Source: Gordonia sp. PDNC005 (GTDB lineage: Bacteria; Actinomycetota; Actinomycetes; Mycobacteriales; Mycobacteriaceae). From it: a stretch of DNA of 64,000 bases. Under the pieces are notes generated by a model. That model was given only the letters and a program-made list of their open reading frames with translations, did not search any database and was not told the origin of the DNA. The stretch lies in the NCBI RefSeq assembly GCF_016919385.1, contig NZ_CP070351.1, forward strand, positions 2,790,001-2,854,000, given 5' to 3'. A program made the position numbers and the translations under genes. Positions 42,110 to 62,476 of this stretch are shown here, one piece after another. Positions within the stretch are counted from its first letter, which is position 1. Every line of letters begins with the position of its first letter.

Positions 42110-42547
42110 TCAGATCAGACCGAACTCGGTCAGCACCCAATGTACTTCGGGGCTACGCATCCGTCCTGGCAGCAGCAGTGGCCGCAGCTCGACTCGTCCG
42201 GCGACGGCGTGCATCCGACCGGCGCGTTCCACTGTCCCGAAGAACTCGGCGGCCCGTGCGGACCGCATCTGCAGGTGCACTCGCCGGAGCCGAACGGCCA
42301 CGCCGCGGACTGGGGCCCGCGCGGTGGACGCCTCCCGCTTCTTGAGCGCGACCGCGACCTGCCCGAACACCTCCGCGGAAACGGTTGCGGAGACGTGCTC
42401 ACACGGCCGTCGGCCGTCCAGCACCTCGAGTATGCGCTGGACTGCGCCGATCACTGCCGTGCGGGCGGACTGTGCGACCTGGGAGGGCGTCGCCGCGGCA
42501 CACGGCCCCGACGACTCCGGTGCCGGCCGCAACTCGATGGTGTTCAT
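42110..42547 (-). CDS. DUF6459 / Rv3235 family protein
   Basis: 145-residue protein with helical N-terminal part (VIGAVQRILEVLDGRRP) and AEFFGTVERAGRMHAVAGRVELR near the end, features of the Rv3235 family. Function is unknown. ATG 42547 lies 2 bases after the ACCTT of an ECF-type promoter motif that is shared with the ESX operon; a TSS that close would make the message nearly leaderless. Confidence 0.75.
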   Translation of the reverse strand: MNTIELRPAPESSGPCAAATPSQVAQSARTAVIGAVQRILEVLDGRRPCEHVSATVSAEVFGQVAVALKKREASTARAPVRGVAVRLRRVHLQMRSARAAEFFGTVERAGRMHAVAGRVELRPLLLPGRMRSPEVHWVLTEFGLI

Positions 42548-42556
42548 ACAAGGTTG

Positions 42557-42583
42557 GACGCACGACACACCGTGGTCGGTTCC
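42557..42583 (-). promoter_or_regulatory. ECF (SigM-type) promoter before the DUF6459 gene
   Basis: Minus strand: GGAACC (42583-42578), 17 bases, CGTC (42560-42557). The 16-mer CGTGCGTCCAACCTTG (42564-42549) is identical to one in the ESX operon at 60817-60802. It lies in the gap after DUF808. Confidence 0.65.
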
Positions 42584-57709: not shown

Positions 57710-58362
57710 GTCGGCGGGTTGTCGTCGTCAACGCGGGTGTGTCCGCTGCGTCGTCGACGCGTCTGCTCGCCGAGCAGCTGGCAGGTGCGGTGACGGCCGC
57801 GGTGTCCGCACGCGGCGAGAACGTTGAGATCGACTACATCGACGTCGCGTCCCTCGCGGGCGATCTGGCGACCGCCGTCACCTCCGGCGTGATGACGCCC
57901 AAGGTGCGCGCGGCGCAAGACCTCATCGCCGAGGCCGACGGCCTCATCGTGGCGACCCCCGTGTTCGCGGCGTCGTACAGCGGCATCTTCAAGATGTTCT
58001 TCGACGTCCTTGATCCGGACGCCCTGACCGGCGTCCCGGTGTTGGCCGCAGCGACCGCGGGCACCGCGAGGCACTCACTCGTGATCGATCACGCCATCCG
58101 CCCGCTGCTCGCGTACCTGCGTGCCGACGTCCTGCCGACCGGCACTTTCGCCGCAACGGGAGATTTCGGGTCACCGGAGTTGGGCGGCCGGATCAGCCGC
58201 GCAGGAGCCGAACTCGCCGCGCGACTGGTCGCAAGCGGCTCCGTGGCAGGCTTCGGCGGGCCGACGGATGTCGGCGCTGCGCCGCGGCGCAGTGGAAGCA
58301 CAACCGACCTCGGACCAGTCACCGACTTCGCGACGCTCCTGCAGGGCCACACCGGCGACTGA
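57706..58362 (+). CDS. NAD(P)H:FMN reductase (CE1759 family)
   Basis: 218-residue flavodoxin-fold reductase: VVVVNAGVSAASSTRLLAEQL as phosphate loop, and ATPVFAASYSGIFKMFFD, the FMN contact region. It makes reduced FMN for the monooxygenase with which its start overlaps (ATGA). The family pair is conserved in Corynebacterium. Confidence 0.9.
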   Translation: MSRRVVVVNAGVSAASSTRLLAEQLAGAVTAAVSARGENVEIDYIDVASLAGDLATAVTSGVMTPKVRAAQDLIAEADGLIVATPVFAASYSGIFKMFFDVLDPDALTGVPVLAAATAGTARHSLVIDHAIRPLLAYLRADVLPTGTFAATGDFGSPELGGRISRAGAELAARLVASGSVAGFGGPTDVGAAPRRSGSTTDLGPVTDFATLLQGHTGD

Positions 58363-58390
58363 CCCCGTATCGCGATCGCCGATCATCCCC

Positions 58391-58437
58391 GACACGCTGC
58401 GGTGCACGTACCCCTCGTCCGCACACCGCAGCGTCTC
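58391..58437. terminator. Bidirectional terminator after FMN reductase and WXG100 genes
   Basis: ACGCTGCGGTG (58394-58404) pairs exactly with CACCGCAGCGT (58424-58434); the arms extend 3 more bases with one mismatch. Convergent gene ends flank it. Confidence 0.8.
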
Positions 58438-58439
58438 GG

Positions 58440-58739
58440 TCATGCGCTGAACGAACGACCTACGCGGACGTCGGTGTCACGCATGTGCGACGCCGCCTTC
58501 GACACTCCGACGCCGAGCCCGTCGAGCTGCGCCCTGGCGTCGGCGAACAGCCGGTCCCACTGGACCTGGGCCTGCTGGTACGACGCGGCTCCGCCTGAGT
58601 CCCAGTGGCTCGCCAACGCGGTCACCTGCCGCTTGAGCTGCCCCGACAGCTCTTCAAGACGCTGAAACTGCCCACGCAGATCCCCCGACAGCGTGTCCAG
58701 TCCGGCGAAGTCGTAGCGGATCACTCCCCCTGTGCTCAT
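58440..58739 (-). CDS. WXG100 family ESX protein, variant motif
   Basis: 99-residue helical hairpin protein of the type VII secretion system. The turn reads HWDSGGAASYQ: the tryptophan is kept but the glycine is one place later than in WxG. Coiled helices LRGQFQRLEELSGQLKRQV and WDRLFADARAQLDGL flank it. ATG 58739 (MSTGGVIRYDF) is chosen. It pairs with the upstream WXG100 gene 32 bases away and probably forms a heterodimer. Confidence 0.85.
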   Translation of the reverse strand: MSTGGVIRYDFAGLDTLSGDLRGQFQRLEELSGQLKRQVTALASHWDSGGAASYQQAQVQWDRLFADARAQLDGLGVGVSKAASHMRDTDVRVGRSFSA

Positions 58740-58771
58740 TCTTCTTCCTCCCCTTGTCGTGTTGGCTGTTG

Positions 58772-59089
58772 TCAGATGCTGATCGTGGAGCCGGTCGACC
58801 CGCCGACGAAGGCGGCCGCGGACGCGTCCTGATCGTCGTACCCGCGGAAGCCGCTCGTCAGTTTGGTCTCGATCTCGTCGAGCGCCTGCTGCAGTCTGGT
58901 TGCGGTCCCGTGCCAATCGGTGTGCGAGCCTTCGAAAGAGGTCGACGCTCGCCCGCTCCAGGTGCTTACGCCGTTACCCGCCGACGACTGAATCCGGCTG
59001 ATGATCCCCTGCATCTCGGCGACGATCCCCTTGATGGACGTCGCAGACGCCTGAGAGGCGCCGACGTCGACGTTGAGTCCGGTGGTCAT
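58772..59089 (-). CDS. WXG100 family ESX protein
   Basis: 105-residue ESAT-6/CFP-10 type protein: WSGRASTSFEGSHTDW after the first helix, and a C-terminal YDDQD that matches the YxxxD/E export signal recognised by EccC. Likely partner of the following WXG100 protein, which has no YxxxD/E. It starts 25 bases after the EspA-like gene ends. Confidence 0.9.
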   Translation of the reverse strand: MTTGLNVDVGASQASATSIKGIVAEMQGIISRIQSSAGNGVSTWSGRASTSFEGSHTDWHGTATRLQQALDEIETKLTSGFRGYDDQDASAAAFVGGSTGSTISI

Positions 59090-59114
59090 GTGTGTTCCTT
59101 TCCTGTGCGCCGGA

Positions 59115-60473
59115 TCAGACGGATTCGGCGAAGTCTGTGTCCCCGGCGACGAGCCGGAGGTCGACGTCGGCGCCGAACGGCTGCGCGAGAAGCGCGGCCA
59201 GATCGGCGTCAGACGTGGAGATGGGCGGTTCCGCGTTGATCGTGTGGACCTGCCGCATCGTCGGCGAGTCGACCGGGCGTGCCGTGCCCGCCGCGGTCAA
59301 CGGAGTCATCGGGACACCGCCGGTGTCAGTCGACGACACCGTGGACACCGTCGACTGCGGCACGGCAGGTTCGGTCGACATGGTCGCGTTGCTGGTCGTC
59401 GGACAGTCGGCGAGCCGTATCGGTTGGTCCGGCACGCTCACCGACGGCGTCGAGCCGGACGGGACGGCGGGGGCAGAGCCGAGCGATGCCGGTTTGACCG
59501 TCCCCGGCTGGGTCGTCGACGGCGTTGTTGTCGACTGCGGTGATAGCGGCTGCGGTGATGGCGGCTGTGTCCCCGTCGACGGCGTGCACGACGAGCAGCA
59601 CGCGGCCTTGGTCTCGGTGGCCGGCGGCCCAGTAGGGGCCGTTCCCGGCGTCCCGCCGAGCATCGAGCCGACGACCGACAGCCCCGCGGAGATGAGCGGT
59701 CCGGCTTTTCCGAGCAACCCGGAGAGTGCGTCCCCCGACGGCACACCTCCGGGTGTCGGGACCTTCCCCACCGGCACCGGTTTCCCGGTCGCGGCGAGCT
59801 TTGCGGTCGGCGCCGCCAGTTGCGCGCGGGTCGCTGCCACGATCGCGAGCCCTTGAGCGAGTCCGTCCGCGGCGATCCCCAATGCGGCCAGCTGACCGGG
59901 CGGCGTCGCCAAGGTCGGCGCGGTCGCGACGAGCAGGCCCACGGTCTTCGCGACCACTCCTTGCAGCGCGGTCATCCCCGCCCCGACGATCCCGGCTGCG
60001 ACGGTGACGTCGCCCGCCATCGACGTCCCCTGCGTCGCGATGAGACCCGACTCGGCGGCGGTGCTCGCGGCCTTTCCGATCGCCGCGGTCGCAGCCGTGC
60101 CCAACCAGTGGCCGTCCACCGCGGAGATCGCCTTCATCAGGGCCGCCGCACCGCCCTCCAGCATCCCGGAAAGGCTGGTCAGCGACTCGACTGGGTTTCC
60201 GGGCCCGGCGAGTCTGCCGGTTCCGAAGGTCGCGAGCAGGTCGATGATCGGTTTGACCAGTGCAGCGGGGTCGAGTCCCGGGATGATCGGCAATGCAGGC
60301 AGCTCGATCCCCGGCAAGTCGGGAAATCGAACCTGCAGCGGTGCCGGCGTCGGGTTCAGGCCGAGGTCGTCGAGCACGTCGGTCACCGGACGATCGAGAA
60401 GCGCGGTGATCCCTGACGGTGCGAGCACGTCCCCGACAGTGAACGCTCTGTCGGACTGCTCGTCGCAGATCAT
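59115..60473 (-). CDS. EspA-like Ala/Pro-rich ESX-associated protein
   Basis: 452-residue protein: N-terminal region with AFTVGDVLAPSGI, a helical Ala/Gly-rich part (about 90-220) containing HWLGTAATAAI (a WxG-like turn), then a Ser/Thr/Pro-rich tail with CCSSC at about 286-290. The composition and its overlap (ATGA) with the EspC-like gene suggest an ESX substrate of the EspA group. Exact family not certain. Confidence 0.6.
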   Translation of the reverse strand: MICDEQSDRAFTVGDVLAPSGITALLDRPVTDVLDDLGLNPTPAPLQVRFPDLPGIELPALPIIPGLDPAALVKPIIDLLATFGTGRLAGPGNPVESLTSLSGMLEGGAAALMKAISAVDGHWLGTAATAAIGKAASTAAESGLIATQGTSMAGDVTVAAGIVGAGMTALQGVVAKTVGLLVATAPTLATPPGQLAALGIAADGLAQGLAIVAATRAQLAAPTAKLAATGKPVPVGKVPTPGGVPSGDALSGLLGKAGPLISAGLSVVGSMLGGTPGTAPTGPPATETKAACCSSCTPSTGTQPPSPQPLSPQSTTTPSTTQPGTVKPASLGSAPAVPSGSTPSVSVPDQPIRLADCPTTSNATMSTEPAVPQSTVSTVSSTDTGGVPMTPLTAAGTARPVDSPTMRQVHTINAEPPISTSDADLAALLAQPFGADVDLRLVAGDTDFAESV

Positions 60474-60775
60474 CGGGGCGCCAATCCGGCACCGGCGGCG
60501 CCATCCGTCGCGGTGAAGTTCGCCAGGCCGGCCGCCGCAGCCGCTGCGGTCGCGGAGTGGACGGCAGCGACCTGGCCGACGGCCAGCAGGTGGTTCGCTT
60601 CGGCGACGGCGTACGCCGCGAGGAACTCCTGGCCGATCAGCCCGAACGCGGCTGTCATCGCGGCGGCCTGTGCTACCTCGGCGGCTGCCGCGCCCGCTGT
60701 CGTCGCGCCGAGCGCAGCCGAGGTCGATCCGAAAGCCTCGAGTGCCGCCGGCACCACGTGCACCTGTCCGTTCAT
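60470..60775 (-). CDS. EspC-like ESX secretion target
   Basis: 101-residue Ala-rich helical protein starting VHVVPAALEAFG, like the VxPxxL start of EspC family (excreted factor, PF10824-type) proteins. FLAAYAVAEANHLL forms the second helix. GGAGG stands 6-7 bases before ATG 60775. It overlaps the EspA-like gene; espA and espC are neighbours in M. tuberculosis as well. Confidence 0.65.
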   Translation of the reverse strand: MNGQVHVVPAALEAFGSTSAALGATTAGAAAAEVAQAAAMTAAFGLIGQEFLAAYAVAEANHLLAVGQVAAVHSATAAAAAAGLANFTATDGAAGAGLAPR

Positions 60776-61161
60776 GCTCGCTCCTCCGACTTGGGTTCTT
60801 GCAAGGTTGGACGCACGGAATCGCCGTCCGGTTCCATCGACACGCCCAGTGCGTCCGTCCCGGTGAGTTCGGCGAAGTCCGCGACGAAGTCGGTCATGAT
60901 GTCGGCTCGTTCGGTGAACACCTTGGTGGCCGCCCGTACGGCGGTGCGCACGATGAGATCGGCCAAGGCCGCCGGTTGGCTGTTCCCGGCCCCGGGAAGC
61001 AGCGTCAGACCGGTCATCGCGCCGGTCACGTCGACGTCGACCGTGACACGGCCGTCGTCGCTCGTCTCGGTGATGGTGAGCGCGTTCAGGCGAGCGTGCA
61101 CTCCTTCAAGTGCCTGAAGCTGTCTTTCGGCCCTCTGCTGGACCTCGTCCATCGTGATCAC
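60772..61161 (-). CDS. YbaB/EbfC-like protein (EspL-like)
   Basis: 129-residue protein: coil VQQRAERQLQALEGVHARLN, then GRVTVDVDVTGAMTGLTLLPGA, the YbaB/EbfC strand pattern. ESX-1 loci have a member of this fold, EspL, which stabilises secreted partners. GTG 61161 overlaps the upstream stop as GTGA. Its 3' end contains the promoter of the EspC-like gene. Confidence 0.75.
   Translation of the reverse strand: MITMDEVQQRAERQLQALEGVHARLNALTITETSDDGRVTVDVDVTGAMTGLTLLPGAGNSQPAALADLIVRTAVRAATKVFTERADIMTDFVADFAELTGTDALGVSMEPDGDSVRPTLQEPKSEERA
60810..60835 (-). promoter_or_regulatory. ECF (SigM-type) promoter before the EspC-like gene
   Basis: Minus strand: GGAACC (60835-60830), 16 bases, CGTC (60813-60810) within CGTGCGTCCAACCTTG. 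It is inside the 3' end of the YbaB-like gene, 35 bases from the EspC-like ATG, and can act as internal promoter. Confidence 0.65.
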
Positions 61162-61487
61162 CGTTGTGTTCCTCCGGCGTCGAGTCGTTCTTCGGATGCG
61201 ACGAGGTCGGCGCGCGAGGGCAGTCCGAGCAGCGCCAGCGTCTCGTCGGGGACACCTTGCTCAGTGAGCGCAGCGCGCCTGCGGACGCCCGCGGTGAGGC
61301 CCGCGAACCGGCACAAGGCGAGGATGTCGGCCGCCAATGCGTCCGGCTCTCGTCTGCACTGCGCGGGTTCGAGCTTGATCGCGACGGGCAGCCCGGTCGA
61401 GGTGCACGTGACGCCGATGCCGCCGCCGCGCGACCTGACCGTCGTCAAGCCGTCGGCACCCTCGCTGTTGTCGTTTCTGGTCCCCAT
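61158..61487 (-). CDS. EspD/EspH-like (DUF2694-type) protein
   Basis: 109-residue soluble protein: TTVRSRGGGIGVTCTSTGLPVAIKLEP, then DALAADILALCRFAGLTAGVRR, the strand-helix pattern of EspD/EspH. These are cytosolic helpers of EspA-type secretion. First gene of the minus-strand ESX operon; an ECF-type promoter lies upstream, its conserved ACCTT 2 bases before the ATG. The family assignment is by pattern only. Confidence 0.5.
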   Translation of the reverse strand: MGTRNDNSEGADGLTTVRSRGGGIGVTCTSTGLPVAIKLEPAQCRREPDALAADILALCRFAGLTAGVRRRAALTEQGVPDETLALLGLPSRADLVASEERLDAGGTQR

Positions 61488-61496
61488 GAAAGGTCA

Positions 61497-61522
61497 GACG
61501 CACGAAACGCGATTTCGGTTCC
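61497..61522 (-). promoter_or_regulatory. ECF (SigM-type) promoter before the ESX operon
   Basis: Minus strand: GGAACC (61522-61517), 16 bases, CGTC (61500-61497) within CGTGCGTCTGACCTT. The ATG is 10 bases from CGTC, so the message should be leaderless or nearly so. Confidence 0.7.
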
Positions 61523-61603
61523 ATTTCGTTTTCTACGGGCATGTCGTGTTTGCGCGGGTGTACCGTTCCGGCACTGCCCGCGTTCACGCACCCAGGGGGA
61601 TCG

Positions 61604-62476
61604 ATGACTACCGACCAGAGCCCGCCGACAGGCTACGACCCGCAGACCCCGCCCTGGCTCCAGCCTGCGACATCACATCCGACACGCACGGTCGACCACG
61701 GATTCGCGCCCGGCGAGATCGATCTGTCCGGGATCATTCCCCCACCGGCGACTCCGGTCCCGCTCGTCGCGCCGCCCATCCCGCCGCCGGTACGTCCCGT
61801 CCCCCGGCCCGTCTCGCCCTCGCCGGTGCAACGCGGCCCCATGGGGCCGACTCTCGACGAAGTCGGGCTGATTCGAAAGGCTCGTCGTGCACCCGGACAC
61901 GGCTGGCGGCGTGCGGTCCACACACTCACCGCAGGCGCAGTCAACCCCGGCGAGTCGCCTGCCGATCTCGAGTACCGCGACCTGCTGGAACGCGTCCGGC
62001 AACCCGTCCGCGGCGATTACCGCATCGCTGTCCTGTCACTCAAGGGCGGCGTCGGCAAGACCACCACGACGGTGGGACTGGGATCGACGTTCGCGTCACT
62101 TCGCGGTGACCGGGTGATCGCCGTCGACGCCAATCCCGATCTCGGAACGCTCGCGCAGCGCGTCCCGACGCAAACGGCGTCGACGGTCCGCGACCTGCTC
62201 GCCGATCCGGTGGTCGCCCGCTACTCGGACGTCCGAGCCCACACGTCTCAGGCGCCCAGCCGCCTCGAGGTACTCGCCTCCGAACGAGATCCCGCCGCCG
62301 CAGAGGCCTTCAACGACGTCGAGTACCCCGGTGTGATGGCGATCCTCCAGCGGTTCTACAACATCATTCTGACCGACTGCGGTACCGGAATGTTTCATCG
62401 TGAACAGTCATGTTCTCACGCAAGGCCACCTAGAACGGGCAGCCCGAACCGCCCGAAGGCGCCTGATCAGGTCTGA
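61604..62476 (+). pseudogene. Truncated EspI/MinD-like ESX ATPase
   Basis: 290-residue remnant. Pro-rich N-terminus (about 1-85), then VLSLKGGVGKTTTTVGLGSTFASLRGD as Walker A, VDANPDLGTLA and IILTDCGTG. Homology stops near residue 265 (GTGMFH) and is followed by an unrelated tail REQSCSHARPP to TGA 62476. EspI-type proteins go on for some 150 residues or more. AGGGGG lies before ATG 61604. The break coincides with the start of the oxygenase/TetR segment. Confidence 0.75.

Follow-up and report, generated by a model that had tools for sequence, protein, structure and literature searches.

Two promoter-like sites on the minus strand of an operon with ESX-type genes in Gordonia sp. PDNC005 raise the question of which sigma factor reads them and what set of genes it would serve. 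The window analyzed here is a stretch of 64,000 nucleotides from this genome, which consists of a single contig of 4.26 Mb. A preliminary description of the window had proposed that both sites, each composed of GGAACC, 16 bases, and CGTC, are promoters of the ECF sigma factor SigM, one at the start of a six-gene operon and one within it. From the comparisons described below, we consider it probable that the two sites are a pair of SigM-dependent promoters of a genus-wide motif, with site 1 heading the six-gene operon.

Both sites lie at the positions claimed, and no other strong match with this spacing occurs in the window (Table 1). Read along the minus strand, site 1 has the order GGAACC (61522-61517), 16 bases, CGTC (61500-61497), TGACCTTTC, and ATG (61487), with TGACCTTTCATG directly following CGTC. 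At site 2, CGTC is followed by CAACCTT, and 34 bases separate CGTC from the ATG of the EspC-like gene at 60775. The spacer of both sites is 16 bases if counted from GGAACC and 17 if counted from GGAAC, which fits a GGAAC/CGTC promoter with a spacer of 16-17.

Table 1. Promoter-like elements and associated open reading frames in the window.
Feature	Position	Strand	Remarks
Site 1, -35 element GGAACC	61517..61522	-	kept in 27/30 genus loci, 3 with spacer longer by one base
Site 1, -10 element CGTC	61497..61500	-	16 bases past GGAACC; extended CGTCTGACC
ATG of ORF 1	61485..61487	-	CGTC and A separated by 9 bases; leaderless start predicted
Site 2, -35 element GGAACC	60830..60835	-	within 3' end of YbaB-like ORF; kept in 20/30 genus loci
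Site 2, -10 element CGTC	60810..60813	-	16 bases past GGAACC; extended CGTCCAACC
ORF 1, 109 aa	61158..61487	-	no family match (Pfam, NCBIfam)
ORF 2, 129 aa	60772..61161	-	YbaB/EbfC family PF02575
ORF 3, 101 aa	60470..60775	-	EspC family PF10824; GGAGGAG ahead of ATG
ORF 4, 452 aa	59115..60473	-	no family match; 'EspA-like' is a label of the preliminary description
ORF 5, 105 aa	58772..59089	-	WXG100 (PF06013, TIGR03930)
ORF 6, 99 aa	58440..58739	-	WXG100 (PF06013, TIGR03930)
Third SigM-type site	42557..42583	-	GGAACC-N17-CGTCCAACCTTGTATG; same extended motif, spacer longer by one base; model search E 0.028
DUF6459 ORF	42110..42547	-	ATG 9 bases past CGTC of third site

The six ORFs (61487-58440) are arranged head to tail; neighbors either overlap by 4 bases or are separated by gaps of 25 and 32 bases, and no terminator-like site was found in 58200-61700; from gene order and gaps we infer that they form one transcript. 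The unit combines a WXG100 pair with an EspC-family protein (PF06013 twice, PF10824), and no match to the EccB, EccC, EccD or MycP families was obtained for any of the six ORFs with Pfam and NCBIfam. By Pfam, the six genes are cargo-type and include no ESX core component. The names EspC-like and WXG assigned earlier were borne out by these families, while 'EspD/EspH-like' for ORF 1 is unproven: no Pfam or NCBIfam model matched, and a homologue set of 17 that counts ORF 1 itself consists of proteins without a name or called 'hypothetical', the named ones all from Gordonia. Homologues of the YbaB-like protein were found in all 59 Gordonia genomes searched, with 91% identity to Gordonia malaquae and 83% to Gordonia spumicola. 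On the other side of site 1, a divergent ORF (61604-62476, plus strand) resembles an EspI-like ATPase (name given by eye; Pfam CbiA/AAA_31). Its similarity to relatives is lost past about residue 265 and it ends early; in six of seven relatives the frame continues to the end of the compared stretch, and the seventh has no clear match.

The motif might be a chance match in GC-rich DNA. The loose form GGAAC-N16/17-CGTCR indeed occurs in the window about as often as expected by chance (4 matches against 2.4) and was dropped, since it also misses both sites, which carry C or T after CGTC. The purine at this position belongs to the consensus (CGTCR) quoted for mycobacterial SigM in the preliminary description; here, a pyrimidine follows CGTC in 56 of 58 training sites, and the consensus has to be written CGTC-Y, not CGTC-R. 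The exact extended motif GGAACC-N16-CGTC-Y-R-A, on the other hand, is found twice in the window, compared with a mean of 0.03 over 200 dinucleotide-shuffled versions, of which none had two. When a matrix trained on other genomes only was applied, the two sites scored 39.9 and 36.5 and the rest of the 127,914 window positions 10 or less; the spacer of this matrix is fixed, and sites with one additional spacer base thus score low or are missed. A genome scan had been suggested earlier as a check for motifs at random positions. The pattern GGAACC-N16-CGTCYNA gave 21 matches in the window's genome against 0 for the reversed pattern, with a start codon 8-9 bases past CGTC at 13 of the 21, and 75 matches in four complete relatives (11, 20, 20 and 24) against 1 reversed. 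The random placement that would have spoken against the proposal was not observed. Two of the 21 (L180, L185) score at chance level inside genes and are probable chance hits. A version of the pattern with a length of 27 bases, used for off-spacing comparison, had 6 matches, among them the third site of the window. For the DUF6459 gene type that follows this third site, two of four relatives have a motif site as well (judged by similarity); the neighbors of the gene in the window resemble, by eye, secA and a WS/DGAT gene.

For comparison within the genus, 30 loci per gene were used, i.e. the best 30 matches among 59 Gordonia genomes. In the 30 ESX loci, GGAACC-N16-CGTC occurs 47 times on the operon strand and never on the opposite strand, and other spacers from 8 to 24 occur 0-3 times on the same and 0-1 times on the opposite strand. 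The spacer and reversed-pattern controls refute the chance explanation, to which we assign a negligible probability. Site 1 is present in 27 of the 30 loci (three of them with the longer spacer) and missing in three; site 2 is present in 20 and missing in 10. The layout proposed earlier, with one site at the operon start and one inside the operon, is kept in much of the genus.

The internal site could nevertheless have arisen incidentally from the last codons of the YbaB-like gene, with site 1 alone being functional. This would agree with the location of site 2 inside an ORF in the window, with its absence in 10 of 30 relatives, and with the EspC-like gene having its own ribosome site instead of being leaderless. 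However, the location of the site varies among species, from 67 bases ahead of the YbaB stop codon to 79 bases past it, at constant spacing, which is unlike coding constraint, and because of this shift it is not kept for the sake of the YbaB protein. Site 2 also ranked first and site 1 fourth in a model search of the genome in which 150 of 3,993 candidates were scored, though these top ranks are not independent, because two close relatives with similar sites were in the training set; ranks two and three went to the site of a DUF6802 gene and to recA. The model was built from 48 of 58 deduplicated training sites of relatives, with the window's genome excluded, while the matrix used all 58. Because the 10 sites left outside the model (9 anti-sigma, 1 ESX) all lack YRA after CGTC, the model favors YRA. 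Taken together, a non-functional site 2 appears unlikely to us, and we continue with two predicted promoters.

To which sigma factor the sites belong can be approached through the sigM locus. With 231.3 bits, the SigM protein of the window's genome exceeds the cut-off of 190 set for the NCBIfam equivalog model NF007225, and each of the 59 Gordonia genomes contains a SigM match. The gene order is sigM, then a short ORF encoding a putative anti-sigma factor, and trxB; in mycobacteria, sigM likewise adjoins an anti-sigma gene and trxB. Of 30 sigM loci, 22 carry the motif in the interval from sigM to the putative anti-sigma gene, no more than 260 nt past the sigM stop codon, and in two further genomes, in which these genes are apart, it stays ahead of the displaced anti-sigma/trxB block. 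Upstream of sigM itself, no motif was found within 1,000 nt in the 30 loci (one with only 173 nt of sequence there), and activation of its own gene by SigM was therefore dropped. The short ORF and its relatives in six other genomes are mutually homologous. Since four of these six relatives match the NCBI anti-sigma model only below cut-off (best 34.1 bits, cut-off 100), and the copy of the window's species matches none, the label 'anti-sigma' is putative. The gene becomes shorter within the genus: its product has about 250-290 aa, including a hydrophobic segment, in many species and about 92 aa, lacking such a segment, in others. The copy in the window's species has about 71 aa, with much of the conserved middle missing (L045 2066-2281). 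A second, partial sigM copy is located at 3809290-3809487 of the genome; it covers 66 N-terminal residues with 94% identity and ends with a stop codon.

Other ECF factors were considered as well, as SigE, SigH, SigK-type and further ECF factors are encoded in the genome and a GGAAC -35 element is common to several mycobacterial ECF factors, so that real promoters might be read by one of these or by several overlapping factors. Motif sites are indeed located about 3-4 kb from the SigK-type (921020) and SigE (1018130, 1018563) genes, though not beside them. When the 14 sigma-70 region 2 loci of the window's genome were scanned over about 1.5 kb on each side, a strong match was found only at sigM (31.0); the next-best locus scored 9.6, beside a ShbA-type factor. 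The -10 element of SigE and SigH is of the GTT type, unlike CGTC. With the site ahead of the putative anti-sigma gene beside sigM in 22 of 30 loci, a reading by other ECF factors is rather improbable. That SigM reads these sites, as proposed in the preliminary description, is well supported by comparison, namely by location, protein family and precedent.

Including the window's genome, five genomes were scanned, and the set comprises 11 to 24 sites per genome. We inspected 87 of the 96 pattern matches, leaving out 8 ESX-operon sites and 1 anti-sigma site; gene calls near the matches were made with a simple coding score, not from annotation, and the 87 sites are not independent, because many are counterparts in related species. 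AbiEi/DUF559-type genes (by similarity) are preceded by 23 sites, DUF6802-like genes by 6, recA by 5 (one in each genome), an EspC-like gene by 4 (three with an NlpC/P60 neighbor, the fourth being site 2), a proline-rich protein gene by 4, and DUF6459 genes by 2. The Tad pilin gene, a GmrSD/HNH nuclease and the anti-sigma/trxB block are preceded by 3 sites each, and 5 sites lie near DUF3558-type genes. The 29 ungrouped sites include site 1, an additional upstream site that one relative has in this ESX operon, a site at a secreted M23 peptidase gene, and probable chance hits such as L180 and L185; small proteins in this group look ESX-like by eye, and the three tested have no Pfam match. Wall hydrolases, thioredoxin genes and other ESX cargo are also covered by the set, and no ESX-4 core genes were seen among the sites inspected.

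Several single loci deserve mention. Some sites stand ahead of what appear, by eye, to be remnants of AbiEi/DUF559 genes, for example a 38-aa ORF (L181 1536-1652, L184), as if the genes decay and the promoter persists. In three genomes (L191, L241, L243), a DUF6802-like gene with its site is located directly 5' of the PEP carboxykinase gene, confirmed by Pfam for L191. At another locus (L228, G030), the site precedes a gene of the alkylated-DNA repair type followed by an RmuC-like gene, both recognized by eye.

The distance between motif and start codon is another common property of the set. At 54 of the 87 sites, an ATG or GTG is found 8 or 9 bases past CGTC, whereas each of the other offsets from 0 to 49 occurs at 0 to 8 sites. 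Transcription from ECF promoters is expected to start about 8-9 bases past the -10 element, and because the start codons coincide with this position, we predict that most of the transcripts lack a leader. The group with 8-9 bases includes site 1 but not site 2, and the EspC-like gene behind the latter has GGAGGAG ahead of its ATG.

Among the predicted targets, recA was analyzed across the genus and beyond. The motif was found in 29 of the 30 Gordonia recA loci, downstream of a LexA-type box and ahead of the RecA start; the opposite strand of the same region had a match in one of 30. With the fixed-spacer matrix, 22 of the 30 loci scored 15.8 to 40.1, one 11.2 and six 1.5-5.6, three of these six having one additional spacer base, and one locus was without a site. 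The core of the LexA-type box, GAAC-N4-GTTC, is present upstream of recA in all 30 loci, so that a loss of the LexA box was dropped from consideration. We infer that recA would have two promoters, one controlled by LexA and one read by SigM. For comparison with other genera, 20 genomes were taken, comprising all 12 of the same family drawn from other genera and 8 others of the order; in none of them did a same-strand score upstream of recA exceed 2.7. With the looser pattern that had been applied to the Gordonia loci, 2 of these 20 upstream regions gave a hit; both hits are over 500 nt away from recA and lack GGAACC as well as YRA. As no convincing match was present in these 20 genomes, SigM control of recA as a general feature was abandoned. 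In all seven recA loci nearest to the window's genome (L141-L147), an ATG stands nine bases past CGTC, open and in the RecA frame, and therefore a longer RecA is predicted from the SigM transcript. The N-terminal extensions comprise 47 to 84 residues and contain TKLSE in all seven; outside the window's clade, the extension frame is mostly not conserved.

A second target beyond ESX cargo is the DUF4244 pilin gene of the Tad type, which is present in 59 of 59 Gordonia genomes. Among the 30 best pilin loci, 10 carry the motif with exact -35 and -10 elements, 11 carry it with one -35 mismatch, and 9 do not have it. One of the ten exact sites has a longer spacer, and that of the window's genome lacks YRA; in this genome, the site comes after the cluster's T2SSE- and T2SSF-type genes and ahead of the pilin gene.

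According to the mechanism we propose, SigM released from its anti-sigma factor would direct RNA polymerase to all motif sites. Site 1 would start the six-gene cargo operon, leaderless at the ATG at 61487, and site 2 would add a transcript for the EspC-like, ORF 4 and WXG100 genes. The site at the anti-sigma gene would provide negative feedback, and at recA the SigM promoter would act beside the LexA-controlled one.

For the function of such a programme, two readings come close to each other. Mycobacterial SigM has been linked with ESX secretion and with contact-dependent DNA transfer, and cell contact is reported to activate SigM in M. smegmatis recipients (PMC10906988, PMC9514802). By analogy, the Gordonia programme may serve contact-dependent secretion with DNA exchange, the reading we adopt, though with somewhat less than an even chance. 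The regulon could also be directed at envelope stress or at defense against phage and rivals, not at DNA exchange; this comes near to an even chance and is about as likely as DNA exchange. AbiEi/DUF559-type genes stand behind 23 of the 87 sites, and four such proteins tested match AbiEi models of a defense library, to which five proteins had been given; wall hydrolases, thioredoxin genes and secreted ESX cargo would fit stress or competition equally well. Against it speak the presence of recA and the Tad pilin gene in the set and the M. smegmatis precedent, which is reported as contact-dependent DNA transfer (PMC10906988, PMC9514802). A more far-reaching version of DNA exchange, which we offer as speculative and rather doubtful, is a SigM-driven, largely leaderless mating programme, in which contact leads to expression of ESX cargo, Tad pilus, wall hydrolases, nucleases and RecA, together with a clade-specific RecA isoform carrying the N-terminal extension. 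Natural transformation was not adopted as a reading; it is weakened because neither comEA nor comEC was seen among the target genes inspected. If DNA exchange is the purpose, the genus-wide set with recA and the Tad pilin gene would provide a short testable parts list for this process outside Mycobacterium.

Compared with known systems, the link between SigM and ESX as such is already known from mycobacteria, where SigM is reported to raise the expression of esx-4 and esxE/esxF in M. tuberculosis (PMC8593097, PMC8092274, PMC10117145) and to have ESX-4, wall hydrolase and nuclease targets in M. smegmatis (PMC9514802, PMC10906988). The Gordonia set resembles this regulon in having an ECF SigM with putative anti-sigma and trxB neighbors and ESX cargo (PMC8593097) as well as wall hydrolase and nuclease targets (PMC9514802), but it adds recA, the Tad pilin gene and many AbiEi/DUF559 genes. 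In the titles and abstract openings of the open-access literature, we found no report of recA or a Tad pilin gene as SigM targets or of SigM in Gordonia. With distributive conjugal transfer of M. smegmatis, the set shares SigM, ESX genes, and hydrolase and nuclease targets, whereas ESX-4 core genes were not seen among the Gordonia sites inspected. Natural transformation of M. luteus is reported to depend on a Tad/Flp pilus (PMC4322843), and DNA uptake in an actinobacterium would likewise be consistent with a Tad pilin gene alongside recombination functions, but no com genes were seen among the Gordonia targets inspected. Finally, in comparison with the LexA-controlled recA of the actinobacterial SOS response, Gordonia keeps the core of the LexA-type box in 30 of 30 loci but carries a second, predicted SigM-type promoter just downstream of it in 29 of 30, which would place the central recombinase under damage control by LexA and, putatively, under contact control by SigM.
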